A DNA stretch of 64,000 nucleotides from Leclercia adecarboxylata (GTDB lineage: Bacteria > Pseudomonadota > Gammaproteobacteria > Enterobacterales > Enterobacteriaceae), in assembly GCF_023639785.1 (NCBI RefSeq), contig NZ_CP098325.1:3286001-3350000 (forward strand), in the 5' to 3' direction. Positions within the stretch are counted from its first letter, which is position 1; every line of letters starts with the position of its first letter. This document shows, piece after piece, positions 22,903 through 44,972 of the stretch. The notes beneath the pieces were generated by a model. The model was not told the origin of the DNA and made no database searches. It was given only the letters and a program-made list of their open reading frames with translations. The translations under genes and the position numbers were made by a program.

Positions 22903-24267
22903 TTAGCGCTCGTGGAACGCCTCCGCCCTCGCCCGCAGAATCGGTTTCAGCAGATACGCCATCACCGTTTTCTTACCGGTAATGATATCCACCGACGCCA
23001 CCATACCCGGAATAATTAACAGCGGCTTTTCATCCGTGCCGAGGTGGTTTTTGTCGGTACGCAGTCGAATCACGTAAAAACTCTTCCCGTCTTTGTCGGT
23101 GACCGTATCAGGGCTGATCTGCTCCAGCGTTCCCTTCAGGCCGCCATAGATCGTGTAGTCGTAGGCGGTGAACTTCACCGTTGCCTCCTGTCCCGGACGT
23201 AAAAACGCGATGTCCTGTGGACGGATTTTCGCTTCCACCAGCAGTTTGTCATCCAGCGGAACGATCTCCACCAGGTCGTTACCCGGCTGGATCACGCCGC
23301 CGATGGTGTTCACCATTAGCTGCTGTACCACGCCCCGCACCGGTGAGGTCACCAGGGTACGGTTCACCCGGTCGGAAATCGCCTTGCCCGAGGCCTCGAT
23401 TTTGCTGAGATCGGTTCGCGCCTCGTTGAGCTGCCCCAACGCTTCGCTGCGATAGCGCCCGCGCGTTTCGCCGACTTTACTCTCAATCTCCTTGATGGCC
23501 GCTTCTGCCCGGGGAATAGCGAGGGTCACGGAGTCGAGCTGCCCCTGGGTTTCCACCACGCCACGACGCAGGCGGAGCACTTCAACTTTAGAGATCGCTC
23601 CTTTGGCCACCAGCGGTTCAGACATGGCGACTTCCTGCTGCTGCAGCGCCAGGCTGCGACGGTACTGGCTGGCCTTGCCCTGGAAGTCGAGCAACTCCTG
23701 CTTCTTCTGAATGAGCTGTTCGTTGAGCCCGGCCAGTTCGCTCTGAATGCGTTTATTCACGCTGGCGAAAAGCTCCATCTCGCCGCTGGCGATATCCGGG
23801 GCCTGCTTCACGATCTCCGGTGCCAGGGTCAGGGTTGTGGCATCGTTCAGCTGTGCGGTCAGACGCTGGATGCGCGCCTGCAGCGCCAGCCTGTCGGCCT
23901 CGCTCTCCCCGGCGTTGGAACGAAACTGGGTATCATCCAGACGCAGCAGCGGCGCGCCGGCTTTCACCACCTCGCCTTCATGGACAAAGACCTCAGCGAC
24001 GATCCCCCCTTCGAGGTTCTGCACTTTTTGCAGGCGGGACGACGGTATAGCCCGCCCTTCCCCGCGCGTCACCTCGTCGATACTGGCCAGCGATGCCCAG
24101 AGGATCATGGCGATAAAGAAGGCGAAGATGGCCCACAGCGTGACGCGCACCACTCGCGGGGCATCGTCCAGCAGGGCTTTGTTGACCTCGTTAGTGGTAA
24201 AGGGTGCGGGCTGTTTATCTCCTGACAGCCAGCTCATCAGGCGGCTAAGCGTCTCAACGATTCGCAT
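22903..24267 (-). CDS. Type I secretion membrane fusion protein (LapC/HlyD family)
   Basis: Periplasmic adaptor linking the inner-membrane ABC exporter to the TolC-like outer-membrane channel. The 454 residues comprise a short cytosolic N-terminus, one membrane segment near residues 38-57 (VTLWAIFAFFIAMILWASL), a lipoyl-like half (GEGRAIPSSRLQKVQNLEGGIVAEVFVHEGEVVKAG), a long coiled coil (about 110-290) and a C-terminal beta region ending GMVASVDIITGKKTVMAYLLKPI, typical of HlyD proteins. It overlaps the ABC gene by 14 nt and is the last gene of the unit. By position it exports the adhesin at 28062-33773. Confidence 0.93.
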   Translation of the reverse strand: MRIVETLSRLMSWLSGDKQPAPFTTNEVNKALLDDAPRVVRVTLWAIFAFFIAMILWASLASIDEVTRGEGRAIPSSRLQKVQNLEGGIVAEVFVHEGEVVKAGAPLLRLDDTQFRSNAGESEADRLALQARIQRLTAQLNDATTLTLAPEIVKQAPDIASGEMELFASVNKRIQSELAGLNEQLIQKKQELLDFQGKASQYRRSLALQQQEVAMSEPLVAKGAISKVEVLRLRRGVVETQGQLDSVTLAIPRAEAAIKEIESKVGETRGRYRSEALGQLNEARTDLSKIEASGKAISDRVNRTLVTSPVRGVVQQLMVNTIGGVIQPGNDLVEIVPLDDKLLVEAKIRPQDIAFLRPGQEATVKFTAYDYTIYGGLKGTLEQISPDTVTDKDGKSFYVIRLRTDKNHLGTDEKPLLIIPGMVASVDIITGKKTVMAYLLKPILRARAEAFHER

Positions 24268-26440
24268 GAATTTGTCCTTTCTTCAGCGCACTCATCACGC
24301 TCTCTTTCGGACCGTCGGCAATGATTTTGCCGTTGTCGACGATAATCAGACGATCCACCAGCGTCAGCAGCGACGCACGGTGGGTTACCATCAGCAGCGT
24401 TTTGTTGGCGATCGCCGGGGCGAGCGCCTTTTTGATCAGATCTTCGCTGGTGTTATCCATTGAGCTGGTAGGTTCGTCCATCAGCAGCACCGGCGGGTCG
24501 AGCAGCAGCGCACGCGCCAGAGCGACAGCCTGCCGCTGGCCGCCGGAAAGACTCATCCCCCGCTCGCCCACCTGCATGTTGTAGCCGGACGGGTGACGAC
24601 GGGCGAACTCGTGTACCCCGGTCAGGGTGGCCACGCGCAGCATGGTCTCGTCGTCAACATAGCTGGCGCCGTACACCAGATTCTCGCGCAGGGTGCCGCT
24701 AAACAGGTGGATATCCTGCGGCGCGTAGCCAATGTTGTGGCGCAGATCGTGAACATCAATCTGGCGGGCATCGATGCCGTCGATCAGCACATTGCCGCTG
24801 TTCGGCTGGTAAAAACCGACCAGCAGCTTCGCCAGAGAGCTTTTACCCGACCCGCTGCGCCCGATGATGCCCACCTTTTCCCCGGGCTGGATCGTCAGGG
24901 AAACATTGATGAGCGAAGCATACTGATTGCCCGGGTAGATAAAGGTCACATCGCGCAGCTCGATAGCGCCGGAGAGTGTTTCCCGCTTCAGCGGCACTTC
25001 GTCGTCCTGCACTTCCTGCTCAAGATCCATCATCCGGTCGATGGTGGCTTTGGTCATCCGCGCGCGCTGGTAGCGGGTGATCAGGCTGCACAGCTGGCCG
25101 ATGGGCAGCATGGCGCGACGGTGCAGCAGATAGCAGGCGATCAGCCCGCCCATGCTCAGGTTGCCGCCAATAATGATGTAGACTCCGGCCACGATCAGGG
25201 CCACGCCGCTGAACTGTTGCAGCCAGGCGGTAAAGTTCACCGCCACATAAGAGAGCGACTTCACCCGCAGCTCCAGCTTGCTCAACTGGCCGGTAAGGTG
25301 CTCCCACTGATACTGGCGCTCGCTCTGGGCGTTATTGATCTTGATGGCATCAAGACCAGTAAGCGTCTCCACCAGCATCGCCTGGCGTTCGTTAGAGAGC
25401 TGATACGTTTTTTTCACGCGGGACATCAGCGGGCGCTGGATCAGCCAGTTCACCAGCAGCGCCAGCGGATAAGCGAGCAGCGGGATAAACACCAGCGGGC
25501 CGCCGATGATGCCAATCACCAGCAGGATCAGCAGGGTAAATGGAAAGTCGATAAAAGCGGTCAGCGTCAGCGACGACAGAAAATCACGAATCGACTGGAA
25601 CTCCTGGAAGTTCTGCGCAAAGCTTCCCACCCGCTGTGGGCGGAGCTTCATCTTCATCCCCAGCAGCCGCTCGAACAGCGCCGAGGAGACCACCAGGTCG
25701 GTTTTCTTGCCCGCCAGATCGAGACAAATACCCCGCAGGATCTTCAGCACAAAGTCGAACACAAAGGCGATGCTGACGCCAATAGCCAGCACCCACAGGG
25801 TGGCGGTGGCTTGATTAGGCACGACCCGGTCATAGACGTTCATCACAAACAGCGGGGCGCTGAGCGCCACGAGGTTGACCAGGAAACTGGCGACCACCGC
25901 ATCCATATAGAGGAATTTCGACAGCCTGAGCGTGTCCTGGAACCAGGATTTTGTGCGCGGCAGCGTGGCCGTCGGCTGGGCATCAAACTCATGCTGCGGG
26001 GAGATAAAAATCGCCCGGCCGCTGTAATTCTCCGCCAGCTTTTCGGGCGAGACGGTGATTTCACCGCCCTCCGTTTCACTGGGCAGCAGGCGCGCGCGCT
26101 GCTGGTCATCCCAGCCAATGAGCACCGCGGCCTGGTTGTTTTTCAGCAGCAGAATGGCAGGCAGAGAGAGCGCGGTAATGTTTTCCAGCCCACGCTGCAT
26201 CACCCGCGCCTTGAGCCCGGCCCGTCCGGCGGCGCGGGGAAAGGTCTCTGTCGTCAGGGTGTGGGCGTCCAGCGGCAGCCCCGCGGTCAGGACGTTGCGG
26301 CTGGTCACGACGTTATGCAATTTACAGACGATCATCAGCGCGTCCAGCAGCGGATCGTCATGGCTTTGCCGCGGATCCTGTCTGCCCTGCGCCTGCGGGG
26401 GCATCTCGATACGATCGGAGGAGTCAATATCAGGCGTCAT
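24254..26440 (-). CDS. Type I secretion ABC exporter (LapB family)
   Basis: Inner-membrane ATPase powering adhesin export. The 728 residues run in the order: C39-peptidase-like domain (about 25-150), six-helix membrane domain (about 180-460) and ATPase. ATPase motifs are Walker A GRSGSGKSS near 525, signature LSGGQRQAVALARAL near 630 and Walker B VLLMDEPTSSMDN near 650. The C39-like domain opens PLLDALMIVCKLHN, without Cys at the peptidase position, so it should recognise but not cleave substrate, as in exporters of RTX toxins and LapA-type adhesins. GAGG lies 7 nt before the ATG. Confidence 0.94.
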   Translation of the reverse strand: MTPDIDSSDRIEMPPQAQGRQDPRQSHDDPLLDALMIVCKLHNVVTSRNVLTAGLPLDAHTLTTETFPRAAGRAGLKARVMQRGLENITALSLPAILLLKNNQAAVLIGWDDQQRARLLPSETEGGEITVSPEKLAENYSGRAIFISPQHEFDAQPTATLPRTKSWFQDTLRLSKFLYMDAVVASFLVNLVALSAPLFVMNVYDRVVPNQATATLWVLAIGVSIAFVFDFVLKILRGICLDLAGKKTDLVVSSALFERLLGMKMKLRPQRVGSFAQNFQEFQSIRDFLSSLTLTAFIDFPFTLLILLVIGIIGGPLVFIPLLAYPLALLVNWLIQRPLMSRVKKTYQLSNERQAMLVETLTGLDAIKINNAQSERQYQWEHLTGQLSKLELRVKSLSYVAVNFTAWLQQFSGVALIVAGVYIIIGGNLSMGGLIACYLLHRRAMLPIGQLCSLITRYQRARMTKATIDRMMDLEQEVQDDEVPLKRETLSGAIELRDVTFIYPGNQYASLINVSLTIQPGEKVGIIGRSGSGKSSLAKLLVGFYQPNSGNVLIDGIDARQIDVHDLRHNIGYAPQDIHLFSGTLRENLVYGASYVDDETMLRVATLTGVHEFARRHPSGYNMQVGERGMSLSGGQRQAVALARALLLDPPVLLMDEPTSSMDNTSEDLIKKALAPAIANKTLLMVTHRASLLTLVDRLIIVDNGKIIADGPKESVMSALKKGQIHANR

Positions 26441-26541
26441 TCTCTGCCTCAGTGTTCTGCAGACCGCGGTCGCAGATAAAAAAGAGAGGGTTACTGCTGT
26501 TTATTGTGCCAGCAACAACCCCGTCAGCCTTTCAGGGCGTC

Positions 26542-27891
26542 TTACTTTAATTCAGGCAGTTCTGCCTGGGAAGATTTCGCTTGTTCGAGCGGCTCGGCAG
26601 CGGACGGCGGCTGAATATTCAGGTTCTTAAGCAGTTCACCGGTACGGGCGCTGATGCGGTAGGTGGTAAACATGTCGACGAACTGCAGCTCGACGTAGCG
26701 GCGCTGGGCGCTGAACACTTCGTTTTCGCTGTCCAGCATATCGAGCAGGGTGCGGTCGCCAAGGCTGAACTGCTCCTGATAGGCGCTACGCACCTGCACG
26801 CTGCGATCGGCATACTCTTTGGCGATCGGCACCTGTTGCCCGGCATTTTTCAGGGCGTTCCAGGCCAGACGCAGATCTTCGTTCAGCTGACGCTGGGCGT
26901 TGTTTTTAACATCCTGCGCCTCTTTCATTTTGTAGGCATAAGAGGTGAGCGTCGCCTGATCGCTGCCGCCGTTATAGAGGTTGTAGCGCATGCGCAGCAT
27001 CGCCTGCCACTCCTGGCTGTGGCCGCGGGTACCATCGATGTTGTTATCCATGGTACGCCCGACTTCGACATTCACATCCGGATAAAAACGCGATTTGGCC
27101 GCTTCGTACTGCTGGCGGGTGGCTTCCACGTCGGCATCGGCCTGTTTCAGCAGCGGATTGTTTTCCAGCATTACGGCACGCGCGGCGTCGAGCGAAGCGG
27201 GCACCGTAATTTTAGCCGGCATCACCAGGGTATCTGGCTCTTTGCCGGTGATGCTCTGGTAGTTGGCGCGGGAGTCTTCGAGGTTGGTTTGCTCGGTCAG
27301 CAGATTGTTGCGCGCCTGTGCCAGACGCGCCTGGGCCTGCTCGAAGTCTGCCTGACGGCCGACGCCCTGCTCGGTACGCAGGCGGATCTGATCGAACACG
27401 CGCTCGTGGTTTTTGAGGTTATCTTCGGCCAGCGCCACCATCTTCTGGCGCATCAGCACGTCGAGATAGGTCTGAATCGCCTGCAGCGCGGTAGATTCAC
27501 TGGTATTCAGCACCGTCCAGGCCCGGGAGTTGACCGTGGCTTTCTGGCGGCCCACTTCGCTGGTGGTGGCAAAACCGTTGAACACGTTCTGGCGCAGGTT
27601 GATGGCGGATTCGCTGCGGTGCAGATCGCGCAGGTGATCGCCTGCCGCGCGGGTGCTGGCGTTATCGGTTTGCTCCCAACCGGTGCCCGCGGTGAGATCC
27701 AGCGTCGGGAGATAGCCGCCTTTGGCAGCGCGGAGATCCTGATCGGCGGAATAACGGCTGTTTACCGAGGCGTTAACTTCCGGATGCCATAGCAGGCTGT
27801 CTTTTACGGCCTGCTCCAGGGTAGTGGCCTGGCTGTGAGTGGCGCTGAGCACCAGGGCTGCCCCCATAACGAACTGACTATACTGTTTCAT
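26542..27891 (-). CDS. TolC-family outer membrane channel (LapE type)
   Basis: A 449-residue outer-membrane efflux protein forming the exit duct of the type I system. It has a signal peptide (MKQYSQFVMGAALVLSATHSQA), then two OEP repeats with long helices; NPLLKQADADVEATRQQYEAAKSRFYPDVNVEVG in the middle and SLGDRTLLDMLDSENEVFSAQRRYVELQ near the end are family hallmarks. It is first of the three secretion genes after the adhesin, with 101 nt to the ABC gene. Confidence 0.93.
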   Translation of the reverse strand: MKQYSQFVMGAALVLSATHSQATTLEQAVKDSLLWHPEVNASVNSRYSADQDLRAAKGGYLPTLDLTAGTGWEQTDNASTRAAGDHLRDLHRSESAINLRQNVFNGFATTSEVGRQKATVNSRAWTVLNTSESTALQAIQTYLDVLMRQKMVALAEDNLKNHERVFDQIRLRTEQGVGRQADFEQAQARLAQARNNLLTEQTNLEDSRANYQSITGKEPDTLVMPAKITVPASLDAARAVMLENNPLLKQADADVEATRQQYEAAKSRFYPDVNVEVGRTMDNNIDGTRGHSQEWQAMLRMRYNLYNGGSDQATLTSYAYKMKEAQDVKNNAQRQLNEDLRLAWNALKNAGQQVPIAKEYADRSVQVRSAYQEQFSLGDRTLLDMLDSENEVFSAQRRYVELQFVDMFTTYRISARTGELLKNLNIQPPSAAEPLEQAKSSQAELPELK

Positions 27892-28061: not shown

Positions 28062-33773
<5,712 letters not shown>

Positions 33774-34419: not shown

Positions 34420-36366
34420 TTAATTTCCACCCAGCGTACTGGCATCAGCGAAATAGCGCCCCATCGCGCCATATAGCCCCATTTTTTCGAGAGTCGCCAG
34501 TTCGCCCGCTGTTTCCACGCGCTCGGCAATTAAAGGAAGATTAATCTGGCGGGCAGCCCAGTAAATTGCCTCAATAAACAGTTTTTTATCGTCCTCACTG
34601 TCTATATCGCGAATATAACTGCCATCAACTTTAATCCAGGCCAGACCCCATTGCGGTAAATTGCCGATAAGGTGGAAGCGGCCACCAAAATGCTGGATGC
34701 CCAGACGACAACCCAATGCCTTCAGACGACTGACCAGCACATTCACCCGCTCCACGTCGGGTAACTCATTCTCATCCAGCTCCAACGTCAGCCAGTTCGC
34801 CAGTTGCGGCGCGCTTTTTAACGGCTGTAACAGGGCATTGAGGCTCTGGTCGTCCGTAACGCTGGCGCCGCTAATGCTGAGCGCCAGCGGGCGCGGCGAT
34901 TTTGCCAGCTCGCGCAGGGTCTGCTGGAGCATCACAATATCCATGCGACGGCTGAGATCGAGGCGGTGGATCCACGGCATAAAGCGCCCCGCCGGCACCA
35001 GCTCGCCCTCCTGAGTTTTGATTCGGGCGAGGATCTTGTGATGCAGCACCACATGCCGGTTATTGCACTCGTAAACCGGCTGGGAGAAGAGTTCAAAGGC
35101 TCCGTTGGTCAGTACCGCGTCCAGACGGGTGTACCAGCTGTGATGATCGTCTTCACTTTCAGTTGCCGATGCAGTATCGGGGGTAGTAAAGATGCGCATC
35201 TCGGTTTCGGCTCTCGCCAGCGCCTGGTCCGCCTGAGCCAGTACCGCCTGCGGCGTATCGCCAACCTTAAAAGGTACCACCGCGAAGTGCGCCACCGGGG
35301 TCACGTCGCTCATGCCCATCTCAGACAACGCTTTCAGCTGCGTACCGAGGGTATTACGCAGATTATCGAGCTCCTGGCCCAGGATTTGCGGGGCGATAAT
35401 AGCAAACTCCCCGCCGCGCACGCGGGCTAAAAAGCCTTCGTTGTGGAAATTGTTGCGCTGCAGGCCGCTCAGAATATCCGCCACCGCCACCAGCAGCTGG
35501 TCGGATTTCGCGCCGCCCAGACGCTGGTTCAGGCCCATCAGATCCTGCACCCGCAGCAGCATAATATGGCCGGCAGCGTTCTCTTCATCGCTCAGGCGAG
35601 ACTGCAGTTGCATATCAAACGCCCGGCGGTTGCTCAGGCCGGTGAGACTGTCGTAATACGCCTCCTGACGCAGCGCTTCGGTACGCCGGGCCTGTTCGCT
35701 GAATAACACCTTCAGCTGCGTCACCATCATGTTGGTGGCATCCACCACCCGGCGCAGCTCGGGCGTTTTCGGCAGTGCCTGAATGTTGAGAAACTCGCGG
35801 CGGCAGATGGCCATCGCCTGTCCGGCAATATAGTTAAGCGGACGCAGGGCACGGCTTAACATCAGCGTGGCCGCCAGCACAAACAGCAGGCTGCAGCCGA
35901 TCAGCCACAGGAAACTGGCGACGATGCTGTCCCACAGGCGGGCCAGGGCAAACATCGGATGGCTGACCACTTCGACCCGGGCGACCTGGGTCCAGCCCCG
36001 CATCACAATGGCGTCGCCCTCACCAGGGCTGAGGTTCACTATCCGCACAAACCACTGCGGTACGCGGGTGCTCTGCGGCACGTCGCTGCGCTCGATAATC
36101 GGTTTATTGGTTTTAATGTCCACCACGCGAATGCGATAGAAATAACCGCTGTCAAAGATGGAGTTCACCATCAGCTCGGTCATGGTCGGATCGTCGATAT
36201 GGGTCGTCAGGGTCAGACCCAGCGCCGTCGCCGCATCCTGCGCGTGGGCGCTGAGCTGATTGCGATACTGATCCCGTGAACTTTCCAGGGTAACGAAAAA
36301 GTTGCCGCAGAAAATGACGAGCGTAAATAAACAGATGCCTGTCAGTAGCTGTTTATAAAGAGACAT
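34420..36366 (-). CDS. lapD: Degenerate c-di-GMP receptor LapD
   Basis: A 648-residue inner-membrane receptor that, when bound to c-di-GMP, holds LapG and keeps the adhesin on the surface. Membrane helices are near 6-26 and 149-170 around a periplasmic domain with GWTQ (W125; a Trp at this site binds LapG in Pseudomonas LapD). Then come HAMP (171-225), a GGDEF domain with RGGEF (317-321) and an EAL domain whose EAL is KIL (444-446) and whose DDFGTG is IQHFGG. Both catalytic sites are therefore lost, as in LapD. It starts 9 nt after lapG. Confidence 0.94.
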   Translation of the reverse strand: MSLYKQLLTGICLFTLVIFCGNFFVTLESSRDQYRNQLSAHAQDAATALGLTLTTHIDDPTMTELMVNSIFDSGYFYRIRVVDIKTNKPIIERSDVPQSTRVPQWFVRIVNLSPGEGDAIVMRGWTQVARVEVVSHPMFALARLWDSIVASFLWLIGCSLLFVLAATLMLSRALRPLNYIAGQAMAICRREFLNIQALPKTPELRRVVDATNMMVTQLKVLFSEQARRTEALRQEAYYDSLTGLSNRRAFDMQLQSRLSDEENAAGHIMLLRVQDLMGLNQRLGGAKSDQLLVAVADILSGLQRNNFHNEGFLARVRGGEFAIIAPQILGQELDNLRNTLGTQLKALSEMGMSDVTPVAHFAVVPFKVGDTPQAVLAQADQALARAETEMRIFTTPDTASATESEDDHHSWYTRLDAVLTNGAFELFSQPVYECNNRHVVLHHKILARIKTQEGELVPAGRFMPWIHRLDLSRRMDIVMLQQTLRELAKSPRPLALSISGASVTDDQSLNALLQPLKSAPQLANWLTLELDENELPDVERVNVLVSRLKALGCRLGIQHFGGRFHLIGNLPQWGLAWIKVDGSYIRDIDSEDDKKLFIEAIYWAARQINLPLIAERVETAGELATLEKMGLYGAMGRYFADASTLGGN

Positions 36367-36375
36367 GGCCCAATC

Positions 36376-37068
36376 CTATTCATTAATTACAAATCCTTCT
36401 GCACGCATTCGGGTGAGAAGATCCTGCCAGCGGGAGAGCCTTTTGCTGTCACCCACGCGCTTGTTGCCGCCAGATTGCGGCAGCCACAGCCCTTCGCCGT
36501 TAAACGCATAAACCGGAAGCAGGTCGGTACGCTGTGTGGCAGGCAAGATGGCGGTTTTCAGATTATCCAGCACCAGCGGGATCGCCGTGGGGGTGGAATA
36601 CCATGTCACCACCATGTGCGCCTGGTTCAGTTCCAGTGCCTTAACATAGGTAATACGTAACTGGTTCGCCGGCACGCCCAGTTCGCGCAGGGTGAAATAC
36701 TTCGCCAGCGCAAAGTCCTCGCAATCCCCTGCCCCCTTACGCAAAAATTCAATTGGCGTTGCCCAGTAATCCTGCTGCTTCCAGACGACGATATCATCGC
36801 GAAACGCCATGCGGGCGTTAAAAAACTGGTTAACCCTGTTCAGGGTGTCCTGAATCGCCCCCTGAGACGGCTGCTTCAGTAACGCGGCCCACTCATCAAT
36901 CCGCTGTCGGGCGGCAGGGGTGGCCGGGCCATAGAGCCGTTCGGTACGGGTGCTGATAGCGCTGAAATCCCACCCGGCGCCAAGCCCGGGAGAGATAACC
37001 AGCAATACCACCAGCCAGAGCGACAGCCAGCGTCGACAGCTCACGAAACGGGAACGAGAAAGCCGCAT
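36376..37068 (-). CDS. lapG: Periplasmic adhesin protease LapG
   Basis: A 230-residue transglutaminase-like cysteine protease with an N-terminal signal/anchor (RRWLSLWLVVLLVISPGLGAG). The triad is C116 (GAGDCEDFA), H151 (AHMVVTW) and D168 (LVLDNL), with spacing like Pseudomonas LapG. It is expected to cut the adhesin at TAAG when LapD is not loaded with c-di-GMP. Calcium-binding acidic residues are expected near the active site but cannot be confirmed by eye. It begins 9 nt after the upstream gene, so they share a transcript. Confidence 0.94.
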   Translation of the reverse strand: MRLSRSRFVSCRRWLSLWLVVLLVISPGLGAGWDFSAISTRTERLYGPATPAARQRIDEWAALLKQPSQGAIQDTLNRVNQFFNARMAFRDDIVVWKQQDYWATPIEFLRKGAGDCEDFALAKYFTLRELGVPANQLRITYVKALELNQAHMVVTWYSTPTAIPLVLDNLKTAILPATQRTDLLPVYAFNGEGLWLPQSGGNKRVGDSKRLSRWQDLLTRMRAEGFVINE

Positions 37069-37077
37069 GGCGCTGAC

Positions 37078-38739
37078 TTACTTCTCGCCTGACCGGGCAA
37101 GCCAGCGCTTACGGTACGCGACATAGCCGGAAAGGTAGTGCTCAACGTCGTCGATCCGCACCCGGTAGCTATGGTGGCGGATAAAAAAGCTGCCGACAAC
37201 GCGCGGCGGATTTTTGAAGAACATCGCCAGTTCCGGCCAGAAAAAGCCGTTCGCCAGATAGCGGGCGCGGGTCTCCAGCGCCTCGTTGAATACCGCCATA
37301 TCGAAGCCCGCCAGCAGATGCTTATACGGCGATGACTCAAGCCGCGCGATCATCCGCGATGCCGCCATCATCAGCTCCAGCAGCGTGGGATAGGTGGTGA
37401 CACGGTTCTTGACGAAGTCGAGATGGTCGCGCACGTTATCCAGCCCAAACTGGTAATAGCGCTCCAGCGGCCGGTAGAGCGTCAGCTCGTTGACGCAGTA
37501 GCTGAGCCAGTGATCGTGGGCCTGCCAGTGCTTTTGCGCAATAAAATGATCCATTGCCCGCTCGACCATTTCCAGCCAGCGCGGGGCGTTAGTCAGGCCA
37601 TAAAGACGCATCAGCGCAAACGCCGCTTCACCGTCGTAATAGATAATGCGGTGCGCCGCCTTCAGGGAGAGATCCCCGGCGTTCAGCACGTGGACAAACC
37701 CGCCGGTCTTAAGGTCCTGCATAAAGCCGATCCCGTTCGCCAGCCGGGCCATCTGCGCCAGATACTGATTATCGCCGGTCAGCTCGCTGTATTTCGCCAT
37801 CGCCAGAATGCACACCGCGTTGCCGCCAAGCTTAATTTCATCCCCGGTATCCACCAGGAAATCGGCGTCACTGCCATCGGGAAGCCGGTAAGTGCGAATA
37901 AAGCTGCTGCAAAGATCGTGGAGCGCCCGTTCGATGGCCGCCCGCTCCTCCGGCTGCTGCGTCACCTCCCACCCTTCGAGCAGGGCATAGGTGGAGCTGG
38001 CGTGACGCAGGGCGTTATAGGTGGGAATAGCGCGATCGAAGCAGGGGAACCAGCCGTACTGATAGCGTCCGGACGGAGTGACCTGCCGGGCAAGATAGTC
38101 GGTGGCGGAGGCGATCATCGGCTCAAGGGCCGTTGCCTGCCAGTCAGGTAGCTGGCGGTAGCCGCTGTTACGCCCGGTCGATTCGATGGGCAACAGCCGC
38201 TCACCGTCGCAAAACAGCGCCTGAGTGGTGAAGCGCCAGAGCGTCTGGTCAGGCTGCTCCGGCCATGTCAGCAGCGCGCCGAAGCGGCGGCGGGAAAAAT
38301 GGGCCAGATTATTGGCATTGGGCGTGGCAACGCCGTGGTCACCGTGGTAAAGCAGCGCGTTGGCGGCAATCTCCTGCTCCAGCATCGCGTAGCGAAACGC
38401 CGGATCCATGCTCAGGCCAAAGCGAAAATAGTTACGTTTGGTTTTGGCTAATCGTTCCTGCAGATTATCCCAGCGCAGGGCCTGTACCTTATCGACAAGA
38501 TCCACCCGCAGCCAGCAAACCTCCGTGCCGCTCTTCAGCTGCCACTGCTGCAGCGCCTGTGCGCCCTGCTGCCAGGCCTGATCGAAAGTGTCGCCACATC
38601 CCTGCACAATATGCGCACGGCTCTGGCTGTCGGAAGCACTAAAAAAGATCGCCCAGGCGGGGCAGATCGACGGTTTGGGCGCGACGTCCAGCAACTCCAT
38701 CGCCGGGCGGGTTTGCGCCAGTAATTGGCTGAGCGGCAT
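37078..38739 (-). CDS. Cytosolic alpha-toroid-like protein upstream of lapG
   Basis: A 553-residue protein without signal peptide or membrane segment. Residues 210-500 are repeated hydrophobic helices with motifs such as [44 protein letters not shown] and [19 protein letters not shown], the look of an (alpha/alpha)6 barrel as in C5-epimerase C-terminal or six-hairpin glycosidase domains. Conserved Asp, Tyr and His are present but no catalytic residue can be assigned. AGGAG lies 6 nt before the ATG. It heads the lapG-lapD unit and is divergent from the hydrolase/ligase cluster, so it probably serves that cluster (inference). Confidence 0.75.
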
Positions 38740-38855
38740 TTTTACTCCTGAGAACGCCTGAGGAAACCCTGTCAGAAAAATCCTAACCCGATAATACCAT
38801 TATGTATGACAAGTTGTGTATTCTGTATATCTATTGTTTCTCCCGGGGCGCTGTT
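38740..38855. promoter_or_regulatory. Divergent promoter region between the two cluster halves
   Basis: 116 nt separating the reverse-strand lapG/lapD unit from the forward-strand hydrolase/ligase unit. AT-rich in its centre; it must hold both promoters, but no confident -10/-35 pair or operator was recognised. Confidence 0.4.
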
Positions 38856-39755
38856 GTGAGTCGATGTTTTGCGGTATGGAGCCTGCTGCTGGCCAGCGTT
38901 TTTGCTTACGCTGAGACGCCGCTGCTGTGGAACCAACCGGCCTCCCGACAGCACTGCCCAACCGGTAACGATGCGGTGTGGGTGCGCCCCCCGAGCGGTA
39001 ACGCCTGCATGCGCTATTTCAGCGCGGGGGACCTCCGGGCCGCCCCACTGGTGGTGGTGGTGCTCAAAGGCGATCGCGTCTCGCAGATTAAGCGCCCACC
39101 CGAAACCATCCCCGGCAACACCGCAACTGACCAACGCCGCCAGGCCCGGGCCATCATGCGCCAGACCGGGTTGCCGACAATCATCATCGCCCGCCCCGGC
39201 ACCTATGGCTCCAGCGGCAACCATTATCACCGTCGCCAGGCAGAAGAGTTCCAGGCGATTAATGCCGCCCTCGATGCCATCAAGGCCCGCTACGGTATCC
39301 AGCGCGTTATCCTCAACGGACACAGCGGGGGCGCCACCGCCGCGTCGGCGCTGTTAGCCACCGGTCGCCGGGATATTGACTGCGCGGTGCTTACCTCTGG
39401 CGCCTGGGGAATACTGGAGCGGGCGCAGCGCATTCGCCAGCGGCGCGGTGAATCCCCTGCCCCTGGGCTGGACAATACCGGGCTTTCTCACCCCTGGGAC
39501 CCGCTCGAGCATATCAGTGGGATCGCCGCCGATCCCTTCCGGCTGATCCTGGTGATCGGGAACCCGCAGGATCGCAATACCCCCTTCGATCTGCAGGCGC
39601 GCTTTGCCGCTGCGCTGCGTGAGCATGGCCATCGGGTAGCGTTGCTCGAACGCCCCGCCATACCGCCGCAATACCACGATCTGAAGGGTAACGCCGGAAT
39701 TACCGCCATTGGTCTTTGTCCGCTACGCGGATACGCCGCAAAAAAGCAGGAATAA
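38856..39755 (+). CDS. Exported alpha/beta hydrolase
   Basis: A 299-residue protein starting best at GTG 38856, which yields a signal peptide (V/M-SRCFAVWSLLLASVFAYA, cleavage before ETPLLW). The open frame extends to ATG 38802, but that adds 18 residues before the signal. The nucleophile elbow is GHSGGATAAS, with a later acidic residue and a His (PPQYHDLKG) completing a possible Ser-Asp-His triad. Cysteines near both ends suggest a periplasmic fold. The stop is 4 nt before the ligase-fusion start, indicating tight coupling. Confidence 0.78.
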   Translation: MSRCFAVWSLLLASVFAYAETPLLWNQPASRQHCPTGNDAVWVRPPSGNACMRYFSAGDLRAAPLVVVVLKGDRVSQIKRPPETIPGNTATDQRRQARAIMRQTGLPTIIIARPGTYGSSGNHYHRRQAEEFQAINAALDAIKARYGIQRVILNGHSGGATAASALLATGRRDIDCAVLTSGAWGILERAQRIRQRRGESPAPGLDNTGLSHPWDPLEHISGIAADPFRLILVIGNPQDRNTPFDLQARFAAALREHGHRVALLERPAIPPQYHDLKGNAGITAIGLCPLRGYAAKKQE

Positions 39756-39759
39756 CATC

Positions 39760-42700
39760 ATGAGCCAGACACCGCCCCGCCAGCAACGCGCTGAGACGCC
39801 AGCACCGGGATGGACCGCCGCCGACCTCGATAAGCTGCCCGGAAGCGTCTGGCATCATCGTCCGGATGCAGACTGGCATGCCTGCGACATCGCCATTTTT
39901 CATGTTAACGCGCAGCCTACCCGCCCCTGCCTGTTTATTGCCATGGATACCGACACCTGGCTGCAGGGCTCCGGCAACACGGGGATTTACGCGGGCTGGC
40001 GCGATACCCATCTTTCCCTTTCCCGCCACGCCTCCCGCTACTGTGGGGCGATTGTTCAGCGCAGGCTCGACGGGCTGCCGCCAGACTTCCCCCAGCTGGT
40101 GGTCGGTAACAGCTATCAGGCGCTGCAGTGGCTGGCAGAAGAGGCGCGGCGACGGCTGGACGGCAAGCTGGTGGCGATCACCGGTACGGTAGGGAAAACC
40201 TCGACCAAAGAGATGCTGGACAGCATTCTTTCACCCCGTATGCCGGTAGTGACAAGTCGCGGCAACCACAATACCCGCACCGGGGCCTCGGTGACGTTGG
40301 CCCGGACTGCCCACAACCCGCAGGCGGTGGTAATGGAAGTGGCGATCTCTGCCCTGTGGATGCGCAACGGCGGGATCGGCCCGCGCATCAAGCCGCATAT
40401 CGTCATCATTACCGAAATCGGCATCACCCAGGTGGGGAAGAACGTGACCTCTCTTGATGACGTGGCGCGCTTTAAAGCACGCATCAGCCACGGCCTGATC
40501 CCCGGCGGCTACGCCGTTTTAAACCGCGATATGGCCGGGTATGACACCGTGGCAGCAGGCGTTACCCGCGACGGGGCCCGCATCATCAGCTACGGTTTTC
40601 ACCCCGGTGCAGACGTGCGCATTACGGCCTTTACCCCGGACGGCAACGGCAGCCTGATGACCCTCTCCCTGCGCCAGCACAGCCTGCGCTACCGGCTGGC
40701 CGTGCCCGGTAAGGGCGCTGCGCTTAACTCGGTGGCCTCGCTTATCGCCGCAGACCTGCTCGGCGTGAGCCTGCCGGAGATCATCGCCAGCCTTGAAGCC
40801 TGGCACAGCGACGGTCAGCACATGGGCATTACCCACCTGCCGCTGCCGGACGGCGGAGCCGTTACCCTGATTGACGACAGCTACAACGCCGAATACCTCT
40901 CCATGCTCAACGCCTTCGAGGTGGCCGCGCAGCACCGCCGGGAAAGCGGGGGCCGGTTGATAGCCCTGCTGGGGCGAATCATTAACCTTGGCGACCAGTC
41001 CGACGCGATCCACCGCTCGCTGGCGGAGCCGTTACTGGCGGCAGGCTGCGGGAAGGCCTTTTTGCACGGTGATGAGATGGCGGCCCTGCACAATGTCCTG
41101 CCACAGAACGTTCGCGGCGGTCACTTTTGCACTGTCGAAGCGCTGGTGGATGCCGCAGCACCGACGCTGCGCGACGGCGATATCGTGCTGGTTAAAGGGA
41201 GCGTGCGAAATTCTGACTTCAACCGGTTAACCGGCCTTCTGAAGACCCGTCTCGCTGCGCCGCCTGCCCTGCCAGAAGGAGAGACCGCCCGTCTGCTGGT
41301 GAATCTCACCACCGGCGAAACGCGGGTTTCCAGGCTGAGTGACAGCACCTTTGCACCAACCTATCTCAGCCAGCTGCTGCTGACCACCTGCGTGGCGGAG
41401 CGGCTACTGATGAAAGAGCTGCCCCTTGAAACGCCTGTTGAGATGCACGCCATTGCCGCCCACGTCCTGAAGGGCAATCCGGCGCTCGGCCTGCCGCAGG
41501 GCAGCACGGTGCCCCTGAAGTCGCTGTTGCAGGGGATGCTGATGCATAACGCCTGCGACGCGGCCATTCATCTCGCGGAAAAGCTGGCAGGCAGCAGCGC
41601 CGGGGCACTGAAGCAGCTCCGCAAGCTAATGAGCGAACAGGGGATGGCGGATACACACATTAATAACGTCTCCGGCCGCCCCCGTCCCGGCCAGCGCACC
41701 ACGCTCAGGGATGTGGCGAAGCTGCTGTACCATTTCAGTCTGCGCTATCCGCACCTGCTGTCGTGGTTTGCTGAGCCCGAAGCGGTCATCGGCAAGCACC
41801 TGTACCGTAAAACCGCCAACCTGCACAGCAACGGCAGCGCCTGGGGGCAATTCAGTGCCGGACGCTGGGGTCTGGCGCTGCAATGGGTCGCAGGGGATCT
41901 CTGGCTGGCCTGCGCCGCCGGGGCGGATGACGCCTTCCATCTCGACTATCTGCTGGATGAACTGCTCTCCCGGGTGGAGGGTACACAACCCGCTCCGGCC
42001 CCCGTCGAACGGCAGCTCCAGAAGCCGGCAGCGACAATCACCCTGCTGGGGGATACCTACTTTGGGGAGTGGTACACCCGCAAGCGTCAGAGGCGCGGGA
42101 TCGACGATGCCCTGCAACGCTACGGATACGATCACAGCTTTGCGGACATTGCTCCGCTGCTGCGCGGCAGCGACTTTACCCTTGCCAACTTTGAGGCGGC
42201 CCTTGCCACCGACCTGCGCGCCTGCCCTGAAGGGCGAAAACCATTCTGCCTGACCGGCGATCCGCAGGCCTCGGTTGCGGCTCTGCGCAAACAGGGCATC
42301 GACGCGGTGGCGCTTGGCAACAATCACGCCATGGACGCCGGACTGCCGGGTCTGCACAGCACGCTGGCGGCGTTTAGCGACGGCGGCATCGCCTGCATTG
42401 GGGCCGGGTTTAATGCGCAGCAGGCACAGGCTCCGCTGGTCCTGACGGTGGGCGCCAGGCAGTACAAGATTTTCAGCGCCTACTGGTACCGACGCTACAT
42501 GGAGCAGGAGTGCGCCTTTTATGCCCGGCCGCGCCGGGCGGGCGTCGCCTGCCTGAGCGGCGGGCTGACTGAACAGCTGCGTCAGGAAAAAGCCAGCGCC
42601 AATCCCGCCACCACCATCGTTCTCGCCCACTGGGGGCTCGACTACCGCTGGACGACGGCGGGACAGCGGGCGCTGGCGCAGCGTCTGAGCGAGGCCGGAG

Positions 42701-43092
42701 CCGACCTGATTATCGGTTCCGGGCCGCATATGCCCGGTGAAGCGGCCCATCACGGCACAAGCCTGGTGCTCTACAGCATCGGCAACGGAGTGTTTAACAG
42801 CAACGGTGAATATCGGGAGCGCGGCATGCCGCCGTATGGTTTTATCGTCCGCCTGCTGCTCGGCGAGCAGGTGCCGCAGATCCAGCTCCTGCCGATCCTC
42901 ACCGACAATAAAAAGACCTTCTGGCAGCCCCGCCCGGTTAACGAGGCTGAATTCGCCGATCTGATTGCGCATCTGACCGCCCAGGGCATGCCCATTAGCC
43001 GGGAAGAGGCGCCCGGCGCGGGCTGGCGAGCCCTGTACGAAGGGGGGGAATACAGGCTGATCATGACGCTGGAGACCTTCGCAGGAGGGTAA
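39760..43092 (+). CDS. MurF-like ligase / pseudo-DD-carboxypeptidase / CapA fusion
   Basis: A 1110-residue protein from ATG 39760 (AGCAGGA upstream). Part 1 (about 1-505) is MurF-like: P-loop GTVGKTS at 142-148 followed by TKEML, GNHNTRTG, DDSYNA near 372-377 and KGS near 480. Part 2 (about 510-745) resembles a penicillin-binding DD-carboxypeptidase of the DacA type, but by eye the three active motifs read YLSQ (535-538) for SxxK, NAC (597-599) for SxN and SAG (699-701) for KTG, so it should not be catalytic. Part 3 (about 755-1110) is CapA/PgsA-like, with GDTYFGEW, GNNHAMD, HWG, GSGPHMPG and YSIGNGVFN, the metallophosphatase-type motifs. No signal peptide. No single known enzyme has this architecture to my knowledge. 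Confidence 0.85.
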   Translation: MSQTPPRQQRAETPAPGWTAADLDKLPGSVWHHRPDADWHACDIAIFHVNAQPTRPCLFIAMDTDTWLQGSGNTGIYAGWRDTHLSLSRHASRYCGAIVQRRLDGLPPDFPQLVVGNSYQALQWLAEEARRRLDGKLVAITGTVGKTSTKEMLDSILSPRMPVVTSRGNHNTRTGASVTLARTAHNPQAVVMEVAISALWMRNGGIGPRIKPHIVIITEIGITQVGKNVTSLDDVARFKARISHGLIPGGYAVLNRDMAGYDTVAAGVTRDGARIISYGFHPGADVRITAFTPDGNGSLMTLSLRQHSLRYRLAVPGKGAALNSVASLIAADLLGVSLPEIIASLEAWHSDGQHMGITHLPLPDGGAVTLIDDSYNAEYLSMLNAFEVAAQHRRESGGRLIALLGRIINLGDQSDAIHRSLAEPLLAAGCGKAFLHGDEMAALHNVLPQNVRGGHFCTVEALVDAAAPTLRDGDIVLVKGSVRNSDFNRLTGLLKTRLAAPPALPEGETARLLVNLTTGETRVSRLSDSTFAPTYLSQLLLTTCVAERLLMKELPLETPVEMHAIAAHVLKGNPALGLPQGSTVPLKSLLQGMLMHNACDAAIHLAEKLAGSSAGALKQLRKLMSEQGMADTHINNVSGRPRPGQRTTLRDVAKLLYHFSLRYPHLLSWFAEPEAVIGKHLYRKTANLHSNGSAWGQFSAGRWGLALQWVAGDLWLACAAGADDAFHLDYLLDELLSRVEGTQPAPAPVERQLQKPAATITLLGDTYFGEWYTRKRQRRGIDDALQRYGYDHSFADIAPLLRGSDFTLANFEAALATDLRACPEGRKPFCLTGDPQASVAALRKQGIDAVALGNNHAMDAGLPGLHSTLAAFSDGGIACIGAGFNAQQAQAPLVLTVGARQYKIFSAYWYRRYMEQECAFYARPRRAGVACLSGGLTEQLRQEKASANPATTIVLAHWGLDYRWTTAGQRALAQRLSEAGADLIIGSGPHMPGEAAHHGTSLVLYSIGNGVFNSNGEYRERGMPPYGFIVRLLLGEQVPQIQLLPILTDNKKTFWQPRPVNEAEFADLIAHLTAQGMPISREEAPGAGWRALYEGGEYRLIMTLETFAGG

Positions 43093-43185
43093 GCACATTT
43101 TTAAGCGATACAACTACCTGAATTAAAATTCCCGATTACAGTTAGAAGATGTCACTCCGCTGTGCGACTGAGTCAGGACATACTG

Positions 43186-43530
43186 ATGAGCGTGCCACTG
43201 CAAAAAATGCCCCGCCGTGGGATAGTGTTGTTAGCGCTGCTTCTCTGCGTAAGCGGTTGTGCTCCCCATGACAGTAATCCCAGCCGGGCGCGCGTGGCGC
43301 CGAAATATGTTCGCCCTGCGCCAGTCCAGCCCGCGTACAGCGCACCGGAACCCTTCCTCAGCGCGCCAGCAGAGGCTCCCTCCCCCCCGGTGAAAGCCAA
43401 AAAACGGCCACCGGTCAAAGCCGCAGAACCCTCCGCTCCCCGGGTGGTGCCGGTGCTGGATAATTCACTGCCAGAGCAAATCTGGCAGCCGGCTGTTACC
43501 CGTCAGACCAGCCTGGAGCTTAAATCATGA
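43186..43530 (+). CDS. Proline-rich lipoprotein
   Basis: A 114-residue lipoprotein. From ATG 43186 the signal is MSVPLQKMPRRGIVLLALLLC with lipobox VSGC; the mature part is Pro/Ala/Lys-rich (APKYVRPAPVQPAYSAPEP, APSPPVKAKKRPPVKAAEPS) and probably extended. AGGA lies about 8 nt upstream. Its TGA overlaps the next gene's ATG (ATGA), so the two are coupled. I do not recognise a family. Confidence 0.78.
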   Translation: MSVPLQKMPRRGIVLLALLLCVSGCAPHDSNPSRARVAPKYVRPAPVQPAYSAPEPFLSAPAEAPSPPVKAKKRPPVKAAEPSAPRVVPVLDNSLPEQIWQPAVTRQTSLELKS

Positions 43531-44972
43531 CGGAACGCGCTATCGGGGAACTGGCAAGCCGAACGGAGATTAAGCGCCCGACGCTGCCGCTATGGCAAAA
43601 CGCGCTGGTTATTCTCCTTACCCTCACCTACCTCATCTGCGAGCTGGCGTTTAACTCGCGCCTGCTCGATCTGGTAGGCAGTCTTTCCTCACCCGATGAC
43701 ATTCACAACATGGAGCGCTACGGTCGTGCCTTAACCGCCATCGCTGCTGCACTGCTGGTATTCCAGCTGGTGCTGGCAGGTAACGCCTGGCTGAGAAAAC
43801 GCGGCGTTGAATTTCCTGCGCCCTGGACGGCAGGCATGGTGTTTTCGCTGTGCCTGCTCACCGGGGTAGTGACCTGGCAGGCGGTGGAGTGGGTGATTGA
43901 ACGTCAGGTTGCCCGGAGCACCGGCGAGTTTCGCCAGAAGTCGATGCTGGCCCAGCTCTATCAGCAGTCGTTAATTGACGGACACCAGACCCTGGAAGGC
44001 ATTCCCATCGATGACGACGGCAGCCAGCGTGACACCTGGACCAGCCCCTCCGGGAAAGCGTTTCTGGCGATGCTGCCGCTGCTGATGAGTTCGGTCAGCC
44101 GCTATCACGAGCTGCTTGAGCGAGAGGCCGGGCAGAACCTGCGGGACAGCATCAGCGTTCAGGAGGGCGGTCTGCTCGGCTATTACAAACTCTGGCTGGC
44201 CGCACGGGCGGACATTTATAAAGACTATCTCAGCTACAATAGCGCCGCGCAGACAGCAGGGCTTTATAACGGCGTGACGATCCCGGCCCGGCTCGACTGG
44301 GAATCGTTTTTCATGCTGGAAGCCGTGCAAAAAATGCTGCGTGAGAAGCTGGTACTCCCTGGAGAAATCCGGGTCAGGCCTGAATACCCGAAAGATGACG
44401 CCCTGAAACAGTTTGCGCTGGATCTGCAGGCCCCTCACCTTGATCGCGCCATGCAGCAGCAGCTCCCCCGTTTGCAGGCGGCGCTGGCCAGCTACGGCGC
44501 GGGCGGGGCCAATGAAAAACGGGGCGAGGATGCGGCGCGGGCGGTGATTGTTCCCCCCATCGCGCTGATGTTCTCTCTGCTGGGGGCCCTCACCCACCTG
44601 GCAAAACTGCTCTATCTGCTGCTTCTGCCCTTAAGTGCCGCCCTGCTGTATATCACCGCCTGGCGTCCCGTTCGCCTGCTCAACCGTCATCCGCTGATCT
44701 TCCCGGTGGCGCTGATTGGCCTGCTGCTCTGCCTGTGCAGCGTGATGAATAACAGCATCACCGCCTCTCCGGCCTATCAGTCATTGCGGCATGGGTTGCA
44801 GGGGGCGGAGGTGACCATTACCGACGCGCCATCGTCCTTAAGCGGCGGCACGCTGCTGCGGGTGATCCATGCCGTCAGCATCGGGCAAAGTTACAGTTAT
44901 CCGATGAATCACGCCCTACGCCAAAACGTGCTTTTCAACTTTGATTTTGGATATGAAACAGGTAATGAATAA
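43527..44972 (+). CDS. Polytopic membrane protein of unknown function
   Basis: A 481-residue inner-membrane protein. Hydrophobic segments fall near 26-44, 68-86, 102-122, 342-362, 364-384 and 392-408, with a soluble domain of about 210 residues (125-335) between the two groups and a soluble tail. A periplasmic location of the large loop is plausible. It overlaps the lipoprotein gene by four bases. No family recognised; by context it could be the membrane partner of the ligase fusion, in the place that CapC/PgsC holds in poly-gamma-glutamate operons (inference). Confidence 0.75.
   Translation: MTERAIGELASRTEIKRPTLPLWQNALVILLTLTYLICELAFNSRLLDLVGSLSSPDDIHNMERYGRALTAIAAALLVFQLVLAGNAWLRKRGVEFPAPWTAGMVFSLCLLTGVVTWQAVEWVIERQVARSTGEFRQKSMLAQLYQQSLIDGHQTLEGIPIDDDGSQRDTWTSPSGKAFLAMLPLLMSSVSRYHELLEREAGQNLRDSISVQEGGLLGYYKLWLAARADIYKDYLSYNSAAQTAGLYNGVTIPARLDWESFFMLEAVQKMLREKLVLPGEIRVRPEYPKDDALKQFALDLQAPHLDRAMQQQLPRLQAALASYGAGGANEKRGEDAARAVIVPPIALMFSLLGALTHLAKLLYLLLLPLSAALLYITAWRPVRLLNRHPLIFPVALIGLLLCLCSVMNNSITASPAYQSLRHGLQGAEVTITDAPSSLSGGTLLRVIHAVSIGQSYSYPMNHALRQNVLFNFDFGYETGNE

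Follow-up and report, generated by a model that had tools for sequence, protein, structure and literature searches.

A candidate module for modification of the (Asp-X) stalk of a LapA-like adhesin in Leclercia adecarboxylata

Described systems and the locus

Glycosyltransferases of the SdgA/SdgB (GtfC/GtfD) system are encoded beside a staphylococcal adhesin with an (Asp-Ser)n repeat and modify this repeat, according to the accessible parts of PMC8561734 and PMC7029136; in the former, SdgB is stated to require only DSD. In cyanophycin synthetase CphA1, a Mur-like domain links Arg to the side chains of poly-Asp by isopeptide bonds (accessible part of PMC9262961). Here, we analyzed a 64,000-nt stretch of Leclercia adecarboxylata (contig NZ_CP098325.1, positions 3,286,001 to 3,350,000, forward strand; referred to as the window), in which three genes, G1 to G3, lie close to lapG, lapD and the gene of a LapA-like adhesin whose stalk alternates Asp with a second residue, X. 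With moderate confidence, we propose that G1, G2 and G3 constitute a module that modifies the (Asp-X) stalk of the adhesin encoded alongside, in this window probably by amide ligation onto Asp side chains. The features concerned are:

37078–38739, minus strand: G1, toroid protein of 553 aa; residues 1–200 small domain, residues 199–553 AGE-type (alpha/alpha)6 barrel
38856–39755, plus strand: G2, exported alpha/beta hydrolase of 299 aa; GTG start, signal peptide judged by eye
39760–43092, plus strand: G3, MurF-like ligase, pseudo-DD-peptidase and CapA in one protein of 1,110 aa (Pfam PF08245, PF02875, PF00768, PF09587)
40177–40752, plus strand: Mur ligase middle domain of G3 (PF08245, E 2.3e-24)
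41290–41799, plus strand: pseudo-DD-peptidase (S11) domain of G3 (PF00768, E 4.9e-14), catalytic motifs replaced
42034–42798, plus strand: CapA (calcineurin-like) domain of G3 (PF09587, E 2.3e-46, 158.8 bits)
28062–33773, minus strand: LapA-like adhesin of 1,903 aa with TAAG at residue 103, probably targeted by the module
29532–33281, minus strand: stalk of uninterrupted (Asp-X)625, with 625 D, 551 A, 71 S, 2 V and 1 T

Compared with SdgA/SdgB, the window has a MurF-like ligase with CapA in place of a glycosyltransferase (GT), and X is mostly Ala. No match to GT4 or GT2 hidden Markov models (HMMs) was found in the scanned part of the window (20001–46000) or in the loci fetched from its closest relatives, and the accessible parts of PMC8561734 and PMC7029136 mention no G1-like protein. 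CphA1 makes its own backbone, whereas the backbone in the window would be a ribosomal protein and the ligase is MurF-like. With the Lap system (LapA, LapD, LapG, LapEBC), the locus has in common lapD and lapG, genes for type I secretion and a TAAG-bearing LapA-like adhesin, but the stalk is (Asp-X)n and enzyme genes adjoin lapG. We found no description of the module in the open literature, with subscription papers and preprints outside the scope of the search, and the accessible parts of PMC2922099 and PMC8401664 contain nothing on this system.

Association of G1 relatives with (Asp-X) adhesins

Among 7,999 candidates scored, 1,259 are homologues of G1 at E values up to 0.001. Of the named loci, which are the best 80 of 286, 44 lie near LapG or LapE plus LapB, and 41 contain (Asp-X) runs inside the fetched DNA; for high-GC loci we used stop-to-stop frames with HMMs, because longest-ORF gene calls are unreliable there. 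All 41 LapG-linked G1 loci examined have (Asp-X) runs. Five of the 44 Lap-linked loci have no run in the fetched DNA, and three of these five (L033, L039 and L051) have an (Asp-X) adhesin elsewhere in the genome; L035 and L036, Lap-linked and without a run in the fetched DNA, were left without assignment. In 295 genomes of the family, G1 is present in 26 and LapG in 40; both occur in 19, in 17 of them together (lists compared by hand). None of the eight adhesins read from the retention module on, among the 21 LapG-positive family genomes without G1, has an (Asp-X) run (G057, G113, G151, G167, G168, G184, G216 and G252), and neither does any of 12 adhesins from further such genomes that were read in part. 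G165 carries LapG and no G1, but its stretch ends before the adhesin, so that it stands outside the control count. G216 keeps the order lapE-B-C-G-D, yet lacks both G1 and an (Asp-X) run. In wider samples, G1 was found in 11 of 60 genomes of the genus, in 8 of 10 for the genus matching Kluyvera, and in 3 of 369 genomes of the class, one of the three being the window's genome and another a distant match (L280/L283) that has no (Asp-X) run.

In a plasmid collection, 14 of 16 fetched loci have an (Asp-X) adhesin beside a G1 relative, including loci of Staphylococcus, Listeria and Enterococcus, and one E. coli plasmid carries a G1 relative with an (Asp-X) run; these loci (L286–L302), taken from 16 of 54 plasmid records and from 1 of 3 genomes of E. 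coli, were hand-picked to span organisms and are non-random. In S. epidermidis (L299:9824-11458), a G1 relative annotated as hypothetical protein lies directly after a gene annotated as sdrF and before an SdgB-like gene, and in S. haemolyticus (L298) the order is pls, the G1 relative and a Mur-family gene with a Pfam match to the second half of the middle domain only. The (Asp-X) adhesins beside G1, found in two phyla, are exported by Lap, by other type I systems or to the cell wall. An exclusive link to Lap was rejected because the plasmid-collection loci place G1 at non-Lap (Asp-X) adhesins. Thus, of the associations proposed in an earlier annotation of the window from its sequence (the first-pass annotation), the link to the acidic adhesin holds, since G1 relatives adjoin (Asp-X) adhesins, but the tie to the lap genes gives way to a constant link with (Asp-X) repeat proteins, among them cell-wall adhesins of Bacillota.

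Two further arrangements were seen. Kluyvera georgiana (L010:15034-20852) has two tandem retention-module (DS) adhesins beside G1 and an ATP-grasp gene, and in Acinetobacter L291 and L302 a G1 relative with pseudo-DD-peptidase and CapA frames lies beside a type I secreted adhesin without (Asp-X).

The enzyme that accompanies G1 is correlated with residue X. In LapG-linked loci, Mur partners occur with Ala (26 of 26), GT or ATP-grasp partners with Ser/Thr (9 of 9), and loci without an adjacent partner have Ala (6 of 6). Over all loci the corresponding counts are 35 of 36 for Mur with Ala, 26 of 29 for GT with Ser/Thr and 9 of 9 for Ala without a partner (Fisher's test of Mur vs. GT 9e-14, computed on related loci), and 12 of 13 Mur or GT loci that were fetched after the rule was formed fit it. 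An exception is S. aureus L288, with a Mur gene in pieces and the repeat DSDSDA. The count was restricted to loci with an (Asp-X) run, Ala type being defined as Ala > Ser + Thr in the runs; L028 (37 S, 24 A) was scored as Ser type and L288 as Mur despite its fragmented gene. L053, L071, L035, L036 and L038 were omitted (partner or adhesin cut off, unresolved or mixed), the re-fetched Kluyvera loci L211, L214 and L216 were counted once, the adhesin counted for L039, L043 and L051 comes from a different contig of the respective genome, and several runs are clipped by contig ends.

Independent pairs of loci were all concordant in one tree, nearly all in two, and 2.2 of 3 on average in the last, a quick tree with long branches and 3 supported pairs. 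The pattern is strong, but its phylogenetic replication is weak, because the loci are related and independent pairs are few. GC content is unlikely to be the cause of Ala versus Ser, since Staphylococcus (30–36% GC) and Kluyvera (52–56%) each hold both types.

The GT partners point to the described glycosylation system. In all four that were tested, the best match in the PDB is SdgB (L031, E 3.5e-31; L037, 1.9e-50; L043, 2.1e-48; L299, 5e-147), matched as chain groups holding 7vfk–7vfo, which the accessible part of PMC8561734 lists as SdgB, and in each of the four loci the GT gene goes with a (Ser-Asp) adhesin, the one counted for L043 being on another contig.

Components of the module and its neighborhood

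Residues 199–553 of G1 have the (alpha/alpha)6 barrel fold of the AGE superfamily, as in cellobiose 2-epimerase and YihS, but share only ~10–15% identity with these epimerases, and G1 has an additional N-terminal domain. Across 76 rows, 94 positions are near-invariant, including the histidines H246, H350, H408, H410, H522, H523 and H534, and the conserved site in the barrel is a putative active site. G1 relatives are often fused to CapA-Mur, Mur, GT4, GT2 or ATP-grasp domains; in Agrobacterium Tul002 (L296), where the repeat is (DA), the fusion is to several ATP-grasp domains with RimK-like and D-Ala-D-Ala-ligase-like matches among them. In the type strain of Klebsiella pneumoniae (L045:9819-12976), the G1-GT4 gene is split across two reading frames. 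Near G1-GT4 loci, e.g., at L031:11478-12410, a possible metallopeptidase recurs: an exported protein of about 310–325 aa that carries HELFH and has no Pfam match.

G2 matches Hydrolase_4 and Abhydrolase_1 below cut-off (E 4e-5 and 7e-5). In LapG-linked loci it accompanies CapA (18 of 18) and is absent with Mur lacking CapA (0 of 8) and with GT or ATP-grasp partners (0 of 9); it is present in 2 of 6 loci without an adjacent partner.

In G3, Mur_ligase_M/C, Peptidase_S11 and PGA_cap/CapA all exceed their Pfam cut-offs, bearing out the fusion recognized in the first-pass annotation, and its suggestion of peptide-ligase-like chemistry agrees with a MurF-like ligase. Mur ligases form amide bonds through acyl phosphates. 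The P-loop lysine and the lysine of an ARxK stretch are invariant in 15 of 15 G3 homologues. In NCBIfam, MurF models give the best matches, up to 228 bits and each under its own cut-off, and G3 is not a canonical MurF (205 bits vs. a cut-off of 288.6); the mur cluster has its own 481-aa frame, which matches G3 at 26% over 435 positions and was taken as MurF. No PgsB model is among the 25 NCBIfam matches shown, and cyanophycin synthetase models match at E about 0.02 only. The S11 domain looks like a pseudo-enzyme, as first read: eight printed rows, aligned with the DacA-like protein of this genome, carry replacements at the SxxK, SxN and KTG sites throughout, and SxxK, SxN or KTG strings occur at other places in some of the 15 homologues. 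By eye, G3 has no signal peptide.

The sole solved relatives found for the CapA domain are the 8gq9 group, which we take to be MslH and which fits the passages on this enzyme. Five of eight MslH active-site residues (Glu44, Asn87, His88, Asp91 and His295) align to invariant G3 positions, the other three falling outside the printed alignment. These residues do not discriminate within the CapA family, since they are presumably widespread in it. According to the accessible part of its description, MslH is a lasso-peptide epimerase that epimerizes the C-terminal Trp of a short peptide.

The remaining genes of the locus are:

36376–37068, minus strand: lapG protease (NF045674, 386 bits vs. cut-off 320)
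34420–36366, minus strand: lapD c-di-GMP receptor (NF045673, 1028.6 bits vs. cut-off 1020)
22903–27891, minus strand: type I secretion genes (ORFs: adaptor 22903–24267, ABC 24254–26440, TolC-like 26542–27891)
43186–43530, plus strand: G4, Pro-rich lipoprotein, accessory; lipobox judged by eye
43527–44972, plus strand: G5, polytopic membrane protein, accessory

Both lapG and lapD exceed the NCBIfam equivalog cut-offs, and we take TAAG at adhesin residue 103 to be the LapG site. The window's type I secretion proteins, used as queries, retrieve the same three-gene set at relatives. Residues 165–1414 of the adhesin are an unbroken alternation of Asp and X over 1,250 residues. Other reading frames across the repeat (29414–33351) contain long ORFs, 1,286 aa on the minus strand and a Ser-Ala-rich one of 1,293 aa on the plus strand, which look like by-products of (Asp-X) codons.

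All five ORFs from G1 to G5 that had been proposed as one coupled system were found in the window. Their close spacing was recovered between lapD and lapG (9 nt), lapG and G1 (9 nt) and G2 and G3 (4 nt, G3 ATG at 39760), as were the ATGA overlap of G4 and G5 (43527–43530) and the 116 nt between the divergent G1 and G2, provided that G2 starts at GTG 38856; G3 and the likely G4 start (ATG 43186) are 93 nt apart and hence not coupled. A promoter scan gave 2 sites vs. 5.2 in shuffles, i.e., no excess, and co-transcription of these genes can at most be presumed.

The five genes do not travel as a unit, because G4-G5 are missing from most module loci, are kept in L228 without a G3 match and have a paralogous pair elsewhere in the genome. 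At the locus, G4-G5 are present in 9 of 11 G1-positive genomes of the genus and in 0 of 49 others. The core is therefore G1, G2 and G3; G4-G5, accessory genes in the window's close relatives, lie outside the wider module and may help it. L228, from a close relative, keeps G1, G2, G4, G5 and a (DA) adhesin, has no G3 match, and offers a natural comparison for G3 function. The paralogous pair (L278:8975-11391; G000:C1 about 1452974-1455390) encodes 247 and 558 aa with the same 4-nt overlap and the same C-terminal TRQTSLELKS; it adjoins an acyltransferase-like gene, and no lap gene was seen within the 18 kb read. Longer G5 relatives (558 aa) were found by protein search in Pseudescherichia and under other names. 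G5 itself has no NCBIfam match, PgsC included, and one sub-threshold Pfam match to another family.

Alternative readings and the proposed modification

Several observations weigh against a module dedicated to the (Asp-X) stalk. Among the 80 named loci, 24 of Comamonadaceae type (21 toroid-CapA-Mur, 19 of them with G2, and 3 toroid-CapA) have neither Lap genes nor (Asp-X) runs, and seven toroid-alone loci lack a run, both judged on fetched DNA of up to 10 kb on each side. BapA-type adhesins from four genomes with such loci (L188/L189, L192, L193 and a fragment from L194) contain no (Asp-X), and two Acinetobacter loci have no such repeat nearby. The LapG genomes without G1 mostly belong to another lineage with another gene order. 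GT4 occurs with (DA) repeats in L021, L030 and L033, two of which are almost Ser-free, and ATP-grasp partners are split, a single one with DS and a multiple one with DA. The trees hold 2 to 4 supported independent pairs, none of them contrary; in the last one, 0 to 3 of 3 pairs are concordant depending on the pairing (sign test p 0.25–1). Initially 6, later 9, loci have the repeat and no adjacent partner (Listeria, Enterococcus, Atlantibacter), which suggests that G1 by itself may act on the repeat or that the partner may be encoded elsewhere. Taken separately, the second half of the MslH alignment falls short of significance, and the chemistry is one that we infer from neighborhoods, fusions, repeat type and conserved residues.

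Some of these points could be accommodated if G1 and its partner modified the adhesin at another place, or another cooperating surface molecule, with residue X merely co-varying. GT4 beside (DA) stalks that are poor in Ser, in Pantoea and Erwinia, and beside a stalk with mostly Ala in Entomohabitans would fit this explanation, as would modules without (Asp-X) in Comamonadaceae and Acinetobacter. However, adhesins of different export types beside G1 share the (Asp-X) stalk, and SdgB acts on DSD; we regard modification elsewhere as unlikely.

The first-pass annotation had seen in the Mur ligase, CapA and a membrane protein the recipe for poly-gamma-glutamate. A free peptide or glycopeptide polymer of this kind, made by ligase and CapA and bound by the adhesin, could draw on these genes, on the exported hydrolase and on the CapA family name, and G3 shares a CapA domain and a Mur-fold ligase with PgsBCA/CapBCA. 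In contrast to these systems, CapA is fused within a protein that, judged by eye, lacks a signal peptide, the ligase is MurF-like with no PgsB model among the 25 NCBIfam matches shown, and G5 has no match to PgsC, so that a poly-gamma-glutamate synthase was rejected. Moreover, most module loci lack G5, the partner type follows the adhesin's own repeat residue, and related loci use SdgB-type glycosyltransferases. A free polymer is thus improbable, and stalk modification explains more. Inheritance of adhesin islands as blocks, with a neighbor-repeat correlation but no functional contact, is very unlikely: it could claim the few independent switches (3 supported pairs, p 0.25–1), but the adjacency holds across differing adhesins and export routes in both Bacillota and Pseudomonadota, G1 is fused to partner domains, and Kluyvera and Staphylococcus each have both classes of partner, in most cases with the repeat that goes with it.

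In the stalk modification that we favor, G1 would act on or present the acidic repeat in the cytosol, and a partner enzyme would add a group to the stalk before export. SdgB-type glycosyltransferases would put sugars on Ser/Thr of (DS) or (DT) repeats. In (DA) systems, an ATP-dependent amide ligase, the MurF-like G3 or serial ATP-grasps, would couple Asp side chains to a small amine or a D-amino-acid peptide, by analogy with the Mur-like domain of cyanophycin synthetase acting on poly-Asp, and the CapA domain may epimerize. The modified stalk would exit via the type I system, with G2 trimming outside and LapD/LapG controlling release. A D-amino-acid peptide as the added group is a lead suggested by recurrent D-Ala-D-Ala-type domains (S11 in G3, VanY in L061 and the D-Ala-D-Ala-ligase-like match in L296). 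More tentatively, a ribosomally made stalk of (Asp-Ala)n, as long as 1,250 residues, might become a cyanophycin-like brush before export, with a MurF-type ligase or serial ATP-grasps coupling a D-amino-acid peptide or other amine to the Asp side chains, an MslH-like CapA epimerizing and the barrel protein, common to organisms from Staphylococcus to Enterobacteriaceae, recognizing the track, and a Ser/Thr track might become a glycan brush via an SdgB-type GT.

Members of the G1-type family are annotated as Mur ligase, hypothetical protein or poly(glycerol-phosphate) alpha-glucosyltransferase. If the proposal is correct, this one poorly annotated family would be a marker of modified Asp-X adhesins in two phyla, whether the locus is of the sdrF, pls, BapA or LapA-like kind. 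Glycosylation of SD repeats would then reach Gram-negative type I secreted adhesins, and a second, ligase-based chemistry would exist for a protein stalk. The swap between Ala with a ligase and Ser/Thr with a glycosyltransferase makes a direct prediction for each genome that is checkable by mass spectrometry.

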